A DNA stretch of 64,000 nt from Candidatus Poseidoniaceae archaeon (GTDB taxonomy: Archaea; Thermoplasmatota; Poseidoniia; Poseidoniales; Poseidoniaceae): positions 423,510 through 487,509 of the forward strand of contig CASIAI010000001.1 of NCBI GenBank assembly GCA_949372655.1, in the 5' to 3' direction. Positions 4,724-51,475 of this stretch are shown piece by piece. A program made the position numbers and the translations under genes. Numbering within the stretch: position 1 is the first letter of the stretch; the number at the start of each line of letters is the position of its first letter. The notes beneath the pieces were generated by a model. It saw nothing but the letters and a program-made list of their open reading frames with translations, made no database searches and was not told the DNA's origin.

Positions 4724-7444
4724 TCATTGGAAAGACCCTGGTGGTGGTGGCCCTGATGGCTTTTCAAGTGTAGAATCATCTCCCTCAGCTGCCTCTAATA
4801 TTTGTTCATCACTGTACTGCTGCCAAGGAATTGGTTGTTTGGTTTCTGATTTCTTTTTCACAGCCAAAAATATCGCACCAATAACTCCACCAACTAGGAT
4901 TATTCTGAAAATTAAATCAAACCAAGAGTCCATATTTTCATTATCAGGAAATGGGTCATAATAATTGGCAAGTCCGTCACCATCATCATCATATTTGGCT
5001 TTCGAATCCTTAGGAAATAAGTCTTCATTATCCCCTAGTCCATCACCATCGGTATCATTCCATTCTGACCTATCATCAGGGAATAAGTCGGTATTATCTC
5101 CTATACCATCTACATCTCTATCGAAACATTCTGAAGGGTCTAATGGCCATACATCAGCATTATCGCCACATCCATCACCATCACTATCCAACCACTCTGA
5201 GGGGTCTTGTGGAAAAACATCTGAATTATCTCCAACCGTATCTCCATCGGTATCATTCCATTCAGATGGGTCACTGGCAAACCGGTCACGATTATCTCCG
5301 TAGGAATCATTGTCTAAGTCTGCCCAATCTGTTTCGTCATTAGGGAATAAGTCGATATTATCACCATATCCATCACCATCTGAATCATACCAATCATCCG
5401 GGTTGCTAGGAAATAAATCTGTTTCATCAGAAAAACCATCGCCATCTCTATCAGGACAACCTTCTGGTGAAATTGAGTTCCCTGCTTTATTTGGACAAGC
5501 ATCTCGATTATTACCAAAACCGTCGCCATCAGAATCTAGCCACTCGGAAACATCACTAGGGAAGGCATCAATATTATCTCCAAAACTATCGTTATCTGAA
5601 TCACTACATTCACTAAAATCCATTGGGAAAGCATCGGAGTTATCTCCACAGCCGTCTTTATCACTATCATACCATTCAGTTGGGTCTAATGGGAATTCAT
5701 CTAATCCATCGATAAATCCATCATCATCGGTATCTTCATCAAGAGGATTACTACCTATCTCAGCTTCCTCAGGATTAGGCAGTAAATCGCCGTCCATATC
5801 GAGGTCCTCAATATCTCGACAACCATCTGAGTCATAATCTGCTGAATGGTTTCCAATCATTCCTCTAGGACAATTATCATCTACATCCAAAACGTAGTCG
5901 TTATCATCATCCAAGTCTACATCATCTGTACAACCATCCGAATCGTGGTCGTTTAATAGTTCACTAAATGGGCATGGGTCAATGGCATCATTAAGTCCAT
6001 CTTCATCTGAGTCTCTCTGTTCTTCAGAGCAGCCATCTAAGTCTACTATAGCCCCGGTTTTAGTTGAAGGACACTTGTCAATGCCGTTAGCAATATTATC
6101 TTGATCATCATCTAATTGTTCCCAAGAACATCCGTCTAAATCTACGGGTTTACCATTCTCAGTCCATGGGCATAAATCATAATTATCGATTACTCCATCA
6201 CCATCCGTTTCAGCAAAACCAATACTTTGTATGGCAAAAAAAGAGATGAACTTGTGCATAACTCTAGTTGGGTGGGCTTTATCAAAAAATAAGTATTCAT
6301 CAGGATTAGCTGCTAAAGTCGAAGCACTATTGCAAATTGGTAATGGAAGTAAAGTCGCTGAAGCTGAGCATGCTGAATCTTGAGTATTTAAAATTCCTAA
6401 TGCCATACTATTATCGACGATATCATTGAACAATGTCCAAGCATCGATAAAGTGAATTTCTAATCCTAATTCAAGTGAAATACTTCCTATCAGAGATAAT
6501 AGTTTTTGATTATATGAAATTACTTCGGAGGCTATTGTATTTTGTTGACTCTGACTTCTTCCTAAAATTTCAGGCGTTTTATCTAGTGGAGGTAGATTAG
6601 GCATGATAAATTCTGTAGCACCTGCCGCTGCTAATTCCCTAATGTGTGATTCCATATTGGCAACAATCGTATCGGAATTAGCAGTTCCATAAAGGAAATC
6701 ATTACCTCCTGCCCACAATGAAACTACATCGTTTGAAGGGATTGTTGATTGAACGTTAGCAAGATAATTTGTTATTTGCGTGCCAACATTAGGCAATAAT
6801 AGATAGGAATATCCTGCACCGGTTTGAGAACCACCAAATGCTCGATTATCTCCTTGTTCTAATCCAGAACCGAATGTTGTAGATAAACCATAAGCCTGTG
6901 AAACATATTCAATCCATACTTTTCCATTTGAAAATCTACCTTGCCAGTATGGTGGAACATCAGGTACATTTAGGATAGAGTTTTTGGCATTACCCATATC
7001 ACTTAATGAATCGCCAAATACCAGTAAATTGTTCCTTTGAGGCATTATAGAGTTCTGAAAAACCATGAAAGGAATATCACTATCGCCGACTATTGAGCCA
7101 GATGAATCTAAAATTTGAATAGAGAAAAAGTAAAAGTTTTCACCGCTGAAAAAATATTTAATTTCTAAATTAAACTGTGTTGTAGAGCCTAATACTTGAA
7201 AAATATGTGTACCATTAGCAACAATCTCATCATTGAAATCCTTGACTTCCCAATTACCATAAAGGTCAATACCGAATGGAGAATTAGAGACACTGACACT
7301 TATCGAAACAGATTCATTTGAAAACCAGTCATATTGTGGAACCGAAAGTTCAACATTCGCTGAACGACCACTATCTGCGTTAACAATAGGAGTATTAAGT
7401 TGCAATAGAAGCAACAATAATACCGTAATCACTGCCTTTCGCAT
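4724..7444 (-). CDS. Exported SGNH/GDSL-type lipase/esterase with long thrombospondin type-3 Ca-binding repeat stalk and C-terminal TM
   Basis: LLVFGDSLSDMGNAKN (block I), WAGGNDF (block III), DKAHPTRVMH (block V); then many DSDGDGxGDNxDxFPxDPSEW repeats; C-terminal TM. Confidence 0.85.
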   Translation of the reverse strand: MRKAVITVLLLLLLQLNTPIVNADSGRSANVELSVPQYDWFSNESVSISVSVSNSPFGIDLYGNWEVKDFNDEIVANGTHIFQVLGSTTQFNLEIKYFFSGENFYFFSIQILDSSGSIVGDSDIPFMVFQNSIMPQRNNLLVFGDSLSDMGNAKNSILNVPDVPPYWQGRFSNGKVWIEYVSQAYGLSTTFGSGLEQGDNRAFGGSQTGAGYSYLLLPNVGTQITNYLANVQSTIPSNDVVSLWAGGNDFLYGTANSDTIVANMESHIRELAAAGATEFIMPNLPPLDKTPEILGRSQSQQNTIASEVISYNQKLLSLIGSISLELGLEIHFIDAWTLFNDIVDNSMALGILNTQDSACSASATLLPLPICNSASTLAANPDEYLFFDKAHPTRVMHKFISFFAIQSIGFAETDGDGVIDNYDLCPWTENGKPVDLDGCSWEQLDDDQDNIANGIDKCPSTKTGAIVDLDGCSEEQRDSDEDGLNDAIDPCPFSELLNDHDSDGCTDDVDLDDDNDYVLDVDDNCPRGMIGNHSADYDSDGCRDIEDLDMDGDLLPNPEEAEIGSNPLDEDTDDDGFIDGLDEFPLDPTEWYDSDKDGCGDNSDAFPMDFSECSDSDNDSFGDNIDAFPSDVSEWLDSDGDGFGNNRDACPNKAGNSISPEGCPDRDGDGFSDETDLFPSNPDDWYDSDGDGYGDNIDLFPNDETDWADLDNDSYGDNRDRFASDPSEWNDTDGDTVGDNSDVFPQDPSEWLDSDGDGCGDNADVWPLDPSECFDRDVDGIGDNTDLFPDDRSEWNDTDGDGLGDNEDLFPKDSKAKYDDDGDGLANYYDPFPDNENMDSWFDLIFRIILVGGVIGAIFLAVKKKSETKQPIPWQQYSDEQILEAAEGDDSTLEKPSGPPPPGSFQ
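4965..6215 (-). repeat. Tandem thrombospondin type-3-like repeats (about 22 aa / 66 nt units) inside the GDSL hydrolase
   Basis: Repeated unit FPxDPSEWxDSDGDGxGDNxD; repeat composition also explains the long antisense ORFs here. Confidence 0.85.
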
Positions 7445-19986: not shown

Positions 19987-20074
19987 GGTTAGCGGTTTCT
20001 ATCAAATATTATGAATTTAATCGTTATGATACATACTTTTCATCAATAAGAAAACCTTAGCATGTTTGATTGCG

Positions 20075-20818
20075 ATGGTTGAAGTGTGGTTAGAGAAACT
20101 TATGGCCTCATATAATCTCGACTCAATTAATTCGAAGAATTCTTATGCTGCCCAAATTCATATTAAAGGTGAATTATTTGAAAATTTGATTTGGTGGGGA
20201 CTTCAATCGCTCCCTGATGAAATATTAGTTGGAATGGATGTAGATCCCGATTCACCTCACCTAACTGAAGTAGAAGACTTATTTCGTAGTGAACAACATG
20301 TTGACGGATTATTTCAAAGTCAAGGTTACCAAATAAATGAGGCACATATAGTAAACCGAGGCAACTCATTCTCAGTACATCACCTACCTGAAGATTGGAC
20401 AGATGATATGTTTTCCTCCAACAGAGGTTCAAGAGCAGGGAGATTTACTCACTGGCTACATACTCACCCAAATGCACCAGCTATTCCTAGCGAGGCTGAT
20501 GCTGATGCTGCGCAAGAAACTCCAGGAATAGATATGATACTGGGATTGAGATTCTCTCCCGAAGGTCCAATGCCTTGGTTCAATGATGTTGAAGGAACTA
20601 GAAGACGCCTCGGTGAAGAAGCAAAACCTGTAAAGTCAAAAAAGTCTAAGCGGAGAAAGTTTGGCGCAAGTAAAAACCTCTCTGTAATTGGTGTTGCCCC
20701 AAGTGGACACAAAATACATGAGATTCAACTGATCGCATTTCATAAATCGGGATTAGCGATAAATGTGGTACTAGTGGATAATGAAGGAATGCCATATGGT
20801 TGGAAAGATTTGAAATAA
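20075..20818 (+). CDS. JAMM/MPN+ (JAB1-like) metalloprotease-like protein
   Basis: HTHPNAPAIPSEAD matches HxHx(7)SxxD exactly. First ATG of the ORF is at 20075 (TTG at 20066 also possible). Confidence 0.7.
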   Translation: MVEVWLEKLMASYNLDSINSKNSYAAQIHIKGELFENLIWWGLQSLPDEILVGMDVDPDSPHLTEVEDLFRSEQHVDGLFQSQGYQINEAHIVNRGNSFSVHHLPEDWTDDMFSSNRGSRAGRFTHWLHTHPNAPAIPSEADADAAQETPGIDMILGLRFSPEGPMPWFNDVEGTRRRLGEEAKPVKSKKSKRRKFGASKNLSVIGVAPSGHKIHEIQLIAFHKSGLAINVVLVDNEGMPYGWKDLK

Positions 20819-50028: not shown

Positions 50029-50682
50029 ATGTCAATGAAACATAGTCGCCCAATACTGACAATTATTGGAGCGGGAGGGATAGGCAGTCAAACTGTAGAT
50101 TTACTCATACCTGCACTTAGAAGAATTAAGGCTCAATGTCAGATAGTTCTAATGGATGCTGACCTTGTAGAAGATAGAAATCTAGGTCATCAAAAGTATA
50201 CTAATGCAGATATTGGTAAAGCAAAAGTTGATTGTTTAACCTCAAAATACACTTCACAAGGTGATGATTTTGTTTCAATAAAAGGCATAAGTGAAAACTT
50301 TACGTCACTTGAACAATTAAGAAATTCAGATTATGTAATCGTCTGTGTCGATAGACCAGAGCCAAGAAGGTTGGTTCATACCCTCGAGATTCCATGGATA
50401 GACCTCAGATGCGGCGGCGATGGTTACCTAGTTCTATCATCGGATTCAGAAAAACAGCTTGTAGCACAAATGACTCCCGACCATGAACCTAAAAGTTGTC
50501 AGCACGAAGGAGCCTTAGATATTGGTAATCTAGAGTTTGGTTTTGCTATTGCTGCCTCATATGGAGCACAATGGGCATTACAACAAATCCGAGATAGTTC
50601 TTCACCAATACAGGCGATGGGTTCGATGAATTTTGGACAGCTCAGTTTCCCTAAAATGAACACAAAGGTGGAGGCAATATAA
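50029..50682 (+). CDS. E1/ThiF/MoeB-like adenylating enzyme
   Basis: IIGAGGIGSQTVDLL nucleotide-binding loop, VLMDADLVEDRNLGHQKYTNADIGKAKVD, VICVDRPEPRR-type strand; possible catalytic Cys in KSCQHEGALDIG. Confidence 0.8.
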   Translation: MSMKHSRPILTIIGAGGIGSQTVDLLIPALRRIKAQCQIVLMDADLVEDRNLGHQKYTNADIGKAKVDCLTSKYTSQGDDFVSIKGISENFTSLEQLRNSDYVIVCVDRPEPRRLVHTLEIPWIDLRCGGDGYLVLSSDSEKQLVAQMTPDHEPKSCQHEGALDIGNLEFGFAIAASYGAQWALQQIRDSSSPIQAMGSMNFGQLSFPKMNTKVEAI

Positions 50683-51239
50683 TGATAGAAATCCCACATA
50701 TTGAACAATTAGAAATCAATACAGATGAATGGTTTGATATTTGTCAACTGGCCAAACAGCAGGATGTAGAAAATCCTTTACTCTTAGAATTACAAAGAAA
50801 AGGAGCCTCTTTAGGAAGATGGGATGTGGTATATTCTTTATCGCTTCTAGCAGGACTTGAAACATCTGTATTAATCGATAGTGAAAATAATATTTCTTTA
50901 GATTGGGGTGAACCTGGAAGGGTGATTCTCAAAGCACCTCATGGGTTTATGGCTCCATTCAAGTTGTGGGTTCATACACACCCTGGGTTCATGGCTTATT
51001 GGAGTTCAACTGATACCAATAGCCTATCCATTGGTTCCTCTATCATAGAAAAAGCACTGGTACTTGGTTCACCCGGGATCAAACAAGCACAAAACTCTGC
51101 TTTTTGTGAACTTGATGAGATTGAAGAGCGAATTGAAGATAATGGAAGTTTAAGTCAGTGGAGTAATGAAGATATCGTAAATTGGCAAGATTGGTACCAA
51201 GAACTGAATCAAAAAGTAGTGATGGAGGAGTCTATATGA
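50682..51239 (+). CDS. JAMM/MPN+ metalloprotease-like protein
   Basis: VHTHPGFMAYWSSTD matches HxHx(7)SxxD; start overlaps E1-like stop (taATG). Confidence 0.75.
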   Translation: MIEIPHIEQLEINTDEWFDICQLAKQQDVENPLLLELQRKGASLGRWDVVYSLSLLAGLETSVLIDSENNISLDWGEPGRVILKAPHGFMAPFKLWVHTHPGFMAYWSSTDTNSLSIGSSIIEKALVLGSPGIKQAQNSAFCELDEIEERIEDNGSLSQWSNEDIVNWQDWYQELNQKVVMEESI

Positions 51240-51475
51240 GCGGAGTAAGAGAACCAAAAGATGAAGAAGAACTAGCGAAGGCTAGACTAGCAATTTTACA
51301 TGGTAAAGGGCAAAGTATTGAGCAAGTAATTGCGAATATTATCCGAGACAAACCGAATACTGAACTAGTGGAAGCTGTAACTAGTAGAATCAAATTCGCA
51401 CAAGAAAGTGAAGAAGTTTTGAACCTTGAAGAGTTAATTCAAAGTCTGGTCACAATGCAAGAGAAGTGGGCCTAA
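51236..51475 (+). CDS. 79-aa helical protein, third gene of E1-JAMM operon
   Basis: MSGVREPKDEEELAKARLAILHGKGQSIEQVIANIIRDKPNTELVEAVTSRIKFAQESEEVLNLEELIQSLVTMQEKWA*; ATGA overlap with the JAMM gene. Confidence 0.7.
   Translation: MSGVREPKDEEELAKARLAILHGKGQSIEQVIANIIRDKPNTELVEAVTSRIKFAQESEEVLNLEELIQSLVTMQEKWA

Follow-up and report, generated by a model that had tools for sequence, protein, structure and literature searches.

The window, that is, the whole stretch of 64,000 nucleotides analysed here, belongs to a 1.58 Mb archaeal assembly (G000, 75% complete) of a Poseidoniales (Marine Group II) archaeon, whose nearest named relatives are Candidatus Poseidoniales and Poseidonia. The three overlapping open reading frames that an earlier note on this DNA had claimed, encoding an E1/ThiF-like enzyme, a JAMM protease and a protein of 79 amino acids, were recovered in the same order and at the same positions. 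The genes and their main features are as follows.

50029..50682, + strand: E1/ThiF-like adenylating enzyme, 217 aa (Pfam ThiF match above the cut-off; PDB profile matches)
50068..50085, + strand: GAGGIG nucleotide-binding loop, residues 14-19 (G14, G16, G17, I18 and G19 invariant in 17 homologs)
50497..50499, + strand: Cys157 (PKSCQHEG), candidate E1 active-site cysteine (invariant in 17 homologs)
50682..51239, + strand: JAMM/JAB metalloprotease, 185 aa (exact motif; profile alignment to Rpn11/AMSH-LP and PRTRC protein A)
50859..50861, + strand: Glu60, predicted JAMM catalytic glutamate (invariant in 15 homologs)
50973..51014, + strand: HTHPGFMAYWSSTD, exact HxHx7SxxD metal site (H98, H100, S108, D111; invariant in 15 homologs)
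51236..51475, + strand: conserved accessory protein of 79 aa, probably helical and ending in KWA (16 relatives aligned)

The final A of the E1 stop codon TAA is the first base of the JAMM ATG at 50682 (an overlap of one base), and the 79-aa gene starts within an ATGA at 51236-51239, overlapping the JAMM gene by four bases. In comparison with the relative L031, purifying selection is seen on each of the three genes; the dN/dS of the E1 gene is 0.062, and the pN/pS values of the JAMM and 79-aa genes, for which dS is saturated in this comparison, are 0.154 and 0.111, respectively. The earlier note had staked its reading on these genes being kept together in relatives, and they are: JAMM lies next to E1 in 68 of 72 loci, the other four reaching contig ends, and the 79-aa gene adjoins JAMM in 46 of the 72 (loci from two partly redundant collections, with some genomes represented twice).

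The operon or a close homolog is found in about 24 of 60 relatives. Within the genus it occupies a single site, 3' of a GDP-mannose-dehydratase-like gene and 5' of a convergent fadB-like gene, and in many genomes a glycosyltransferase gene lies between the former and the operon. A clean empty site was found in the genome G020, where the flanking genes are intact, the three genes are gone and 34 bases are left between the flanks. In one genome the whole operon occurs twice with similar neighbours (G003:C7 and G003:C6; loci L039 and L043), possibly through duplication or strain mixing. Close homologs also occur on contigs labelled Acidiferrobacter, Verrucomicrobia and Acidimicrobiaceae (L117, L119, L126 and L128), which are possibly mis-binned archaeal contigs.

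The E1-like protein matches Pfam ThiF at an E-value of 4.3e-14 (52.7 bits against a cut-off of 28.1), and its profile matches in the PDB include MccB, UBA1, NEDD8-E1, ThiF, MoeB and Cap2, the best being MccB (4.3e-12). The glycine-rich loop and DxD-type block described earlier are both present, as GAGGIG and DADLVEDRNLGHQ; together with the match above the curated cut-off, they assign the protein by sequence to the E1/ThiF superfamily. The reported absence of CxxC zinc pairs holds as well: there are zero CxxC motifs in this E1, and such structural zinc pairs are found in many, though not all, E1/ThiF members. In the alignment, Cys157 falls in the same column as the cysteine of the SC in the MoeB-like E1 of the same genome and in two PRTRC ThiF proteins. 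This is the position of the conserved ThiF/MoeB cysteine before the C-terminal helix, and Cys157 is a candidate for a catalytic role.

The exact JAMM motif of the second protein was borne out as H98-x-H100-x7-S108-xx-D111, a pattern that arose in only 29 of 100,000 trials when the residues of the protein were shuffled. These four residues and E60 are unchanged across the 15 homologs, and the signature of a glutamate plus HxHx7SxxD predicts a JAMM/JAB metalloprotease. The profile aligns weakly with Rpn11 and AMSH-LP (E-value = 0.04) and with PRTRC protein A over Glu...HxH...SxTD (P = 5.5e-4). The protein as a whole is divergent and stays below the Pfam cut-off for Prok-JAB (12.8 against 25 bits). 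Within the Thermoplasmatota the family is confined to the Poseidoniales (39 of 293 genomes). The window holds a second JAMM-like protein of 250 aa (20066-20818, + strand; HTHPNAPAIPSEAD), which matches Prok-JAB at 1e-4, slightly under the cut-off. Because 36 of 40 relatives have its gene, among them some that lack the operon, it is regarded as a separate, near-universal Poseidoniales gene.

The 79-aa protein looks like a small helical bundle. Its family is marked by an N-terminal R-x-PKD-x2-E and one invariant glycine, and it returned zero PDB or family matches. We rejected it as a ubiquitin-like modifier (Ubl), as it has neither a terminal GG nor a beta-grasp pattern and a better Ubl was found; the view that the third protein is not a classical Ubl is thus upheld. 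Of the two roles proposed for it, adaptor or novel substrate, the former agrees with the accessory reading, and the latter is not needed, the likely modifier being encoded by a tandem gene elsewhere. Given its conservation beside JAMM, the simplest reading of the protein is as a cofactor of either E1 or JAMM.

That tandem gene was found outside the window. No recognisable Ubl adjoins the operon, as the earlier note had stated; what it missed is the likely modifier, which sits elsewhere in the same genome. In divergent relatives the cassette includes a protein of 73-102 aa ending in LPGL(V/I)GG plus a tail, and the profile of this small protein identified three consecutive in-frame repeats at G000:C8:74667-75293 (E-value = 1.8e-15), a gene on another contig of the window genome with a product of 215 aa. 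All three units carry a C-terminal GG: they end in MPGIIGG, MPGLVGG and MPGLVGG-LY, the last with the two-residue tail LY. The predicted product has the layout of a eukaryotic polyubiquitin precursor. Other Poseidoniales mostly have 1-4 units, the last of which is followed by a short tail of at least one residue (F, N, IC, RC, Q or MASEVC). In one Poseidonia clade the units end in VPALxAG, with AG replacing GG (L075, L077 and L083); two genomes from this clade, G003 and G027, retain the operon.

An AlphaFold model of the Ubl (pLDDT 85) has the element order of ubiquitin, b-b-a-b-b-(3-10)-b, and the top PDB structure matches are mostly ubiquitin-fold proteins (SUMO, ISG15 and the UBLs of ubiquilin and Dsk2; probability 0.90-0.98), at E-values of about 0.01 and never below 0.001. 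The modelled order and these matches point to a beta-grasp fold. A profile from the broader Ubl alignment is in register with ubiquitin up to the terminal GG; its E-value of 2.4e-8 to ubiquitin adds up nine identical repeats and so overstates the match, the similarity to a single repeat being negligible (2.5 bits), and a profile from the divergent sequences alone had no match in the PDB. Among 390 Thermoplasmatota genomes the Ubl occurs in 66, all of them Poseidoniales.

Since the E1 and Ubl genes are unlinked within the genus, it is their co-occurrence, together with linked versions in relatives, that argues for a partnership in the window genome. Among 60 genomes, both are present in 22, only one of the two in 2 and 2, and neither in 34 (Fisher p = 5e-12); within the genus the counts are 15/2/2/15 (p = 1.6e-5). 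Both tests ignore shared ancestry, and incomplete genomes account for several of the single cases. Linked versions are of two kinds. In L109, L110 and L130, two Ubl units are fused N-terminally to E1, and the JAMM and 79-aa genes come next; in L118, L127 and L291, one Ubl lies directly upstream of an E1-JAMM fusion, a protein of about 400 aa. In G074, assembled as one contig of 2.06 Mb, all parts lie on one chromosome, the operon at about 506-508 kb, the poly-Ubl gene at 111 kb and genes of the cysteine family described below at 316, 506 and 625 kb.

A domain of roughly 110 residues recurs in proteins of 230-1000 aa encoded in the cassettes or elsewhere in these genomes, a family that the earlier note had missed. 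Its cysteine, mostly in the context I-C-I and with P-x-G-D and a helix after it, is invariant in the 23 domains aligned. One type lies directly 3' of the 79-aa gene (L036, L095 and L097), and in L107 the domain is fused to Ubl. The family is present in all 24 E1-positive and 5 of 36 E1-negative genomes (24/0/5/31; Fisher p = 3e-12 over the 60 genomes, ancestry ignored), and its co-occurrence with E1 and Ubl is almost perfect (p about 1e-11, likewise uncorrected for ancestry); the 75%-complete window genome has one short member at C1:322599-323039. Sequence searches gave zero Pfam, NCBIfam or PDB matches. The AlphaFold model is alpha-4 beta-(Cys)-alpha, the same element order as in E2 enzymes, and Foldseek returned no significant E2 match for it, the best match being frataxin (E-value = 0.19). 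With its catalytic-type cysteine and a modelled fold of similar order, the family is a candidate E2, and a candidate new group of E2 enzymes; this is the most interesting point of the analysis.

An operon of E1, JAMM and a helical partner, together with a tandem Ubl in the same genome, makes it probable that this group of archaea has its own, undescribed ubiquitin-style tagging pathway. We therefore read the operon, with a probability of roughly 0.8, as the E1, JAMM and helical accessory of a dedicated polyubiquitin-like conjugation/deconjugation pathway in Poseidoniales, within which conjugation itself is the inferred part. The compact E1 and JAMM module proposed earlier is in this respect supported and is conserved as a unit. 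In such a pathway, JAMM would cut after each GG to free mature Ubl, and could also strip Ubl from targets; E1 would adenylate the terminal glycine and may hold the Ubl on Cys157 as a thioester; the cysteine family might then hand it to targets in the manner of an E2, which is the weakest step; and the 79-aa protein may bridge or regulate E1 and JAMM. A 20S proteasome is present in these genomes and is a possible destination of tagged proteins. A more tentative extension, to which we give somewhat less than an even chance, is that Poseidoniales run a complete polyubiquitin-based conjugation with a tandem Ubl precursor, a dedicated short E1, a JAMM deconjugase, a helical cofactor and an E2 family not described before, which has a conserved cysteine and no sequence relationship to known E2s; the pathway might feed the 20S proteasome.

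Among other explanations, anti-virus defence, in which the Ubl system would tag viral proteins as bacterial Bil or CBASS Cap2/Cap3 do, survives best and is still unlikely. The patchy presence and absence of the operon, a generic likeness of the E1 to CBASS E1-E2 models and four Poseidoniales loci in which a related cassette adjoins a phage-type RNA polymerase would fit it. However, PADLOC recognised just the generic fold of the E1; it gave mere noise for the Ubl and no match for JAMM, the E2 candidate or the 79-aa protein. The parts occupy separate conserved sites on the chromosome and do not form a defence island, and no effector was found. Sulfur transfer, suggested in the earlier note, in which E1 and Ubl would deliver sulfur for tRNA thiolation or cofactor synthesis and JAMM would merely mature the carrier, is improbable. 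E1 enzymes of this size do resemble ThiF/MoeB, and bacterial operons of JAB plus ThiS/MoaD tied to sulfur metabolism exist (PMC1779556). This role became less likely because 20 of the 21 genomes scanned, including genomes without the operon system, carry a separate MoeB-type E1 (388 aa in the window genome) with a C-terminal extension, probably the ordinary enzyme kept for the sulfur carriers and other duties. In addition, the window E1 has no rhodanese domain, sulfur genes were not found near the operon, and a tandem GG-ended precursor with a cysteine family is a poor fit to sulfur delivery. Small-molecule or peptide chemistry, with E1 adenylating peptide termini like its best PDB profile match MccB and JAMM trimming them, is very improbable, since MccB acts on short peptides and is accompanied by transport and resistance genes, none of which were seen at the locus, and since the fusion of E1 to Ubl units points to a protein modifier.

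The RNA polymerase noted above is a T7-type single-subunit enzyme of 1,280 aa (PF00940, 3.8e-46; phage RNA polymerase family, 4.8e-80), which is unexpected in archaea.

L046 249-4115, L112 1774-5622 and L113 2460-6302: T7-type RNA polymerase, directly upstream of a cassette of E2 candidate, Ubl, E1 and JAMM

These cassettes may belong to a virus, a plasmid or an integrated island. A viral origin is weakened by L113, whose cassette lies among ordinary cellular-looking genes on a 61 kb contig, and IMG/VR contained zero Ubl matches and only distant E1s (at most 34% identity). An AAA+ ATPase is encoded near two divergent cassettes (L049 1362-2798 and L053 4070-5473), and L053 also has a TFB-like transcription factor (5498-6517).

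If the pathway of polyubiquitin-like conjugation is real, the few known archaeal ubiquitin-like pathways would gain an independent member, in uncultured archaea that rank among the most abundant of the surface ocean, and its compact, expressible set of E1, JAMM, helical protein and Ubl would allow the origin of polyubiquitin genes and E2 enzymes to be tested. Text searches covering 5.39 million open-access papers found no such system in Marine Group II; in a 2014 survey, the entries for one single-cell genome of Marine Group II were limited to a UCH protease and RING proteins (PMC4327156).

Among named families, the E1 comes closest to the ThiF of the PRTRC plasmid cassette (NCBIfam TIGR03736, with proteins A-F; 2e-11 for the window protein and 2.9e-19 for L110), and the JAB protein A of that cassette aligns across the JAMM site. 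Membership was rejected: the E1 scores 43.7 bits against a cut-off of 144.75, ParB is absent and the partner proteins fail, with no profile match of PRTRC proteins C and B to the Ubl and cysteine family, nor of protein F to the 79-aa family by hhalign. The archaeal SAMP/UbaA and Urm1 pathways share the logic of E1, Ubl and JAMM; as a UbaA-type E1, however, the window protein scores 19.4 bits against a cut-off of 450, and the MoeB-type E1 exists separately. CBASS Cap2/Cap3 and Bil were rejected on finding neither an E1-E2 fusion with a linked effector nor a defence context. By these tests, the Poseidoniales system is not PRTRC, SAMP/UbaA, CBASS or Bil. The Caldiarchaeum operon of E1, E2, RING and Ub, with CsRpn11 (PMC5654768, PMC6043591), is alike in having an archaeal Ub precursor, an E1 and a JAMM, whereas here the modifier is tandem, the genes are unlinked, the E1 is of the short ThiF type and, unlike in Caldiarchaeum, no E2 or RING was detected by Pfam in the Poseidoniales proteins scanned.

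E1-Ubl-JAB systems were predicted in bacteria in 2006, among them one type with tandem Ubl (6e) and another that combines a helical protein with an E2 carrying a cysteine (6d) (Iyer, Burroughs and Aravind; PMC1779556). The type 6e polyUbl operons have 1-3 tandem Ubl domains, an E1, a JAB and an E2-fold partner, and are in this respect alike; but they are exclusively bacterial, their JAB is mostly N-terminal to E1 and their E2-like domain is without the cysteine, whereas the present host is archaeal, JAMM is separate or a C-terminal fusion and the E2 candidate has an invariant cysteine. Accordingly, neither the N-terminal JAB-E1 fusion nor the cysteine-less E2/RWD partner of 6e was found in the Poseidoniales system. 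Type 6d operons, which are bacterial and have a single Ubl, match the parts list by description: E1, JAB, a small Ubl, a mostly helical protein and a cysteine-bearing E2-like protein (PMC1779556). In short, the system is best read as an archaeal variant of the prokaryotic E1-Ubl-JAB systems, those known being mainly from bacteria.
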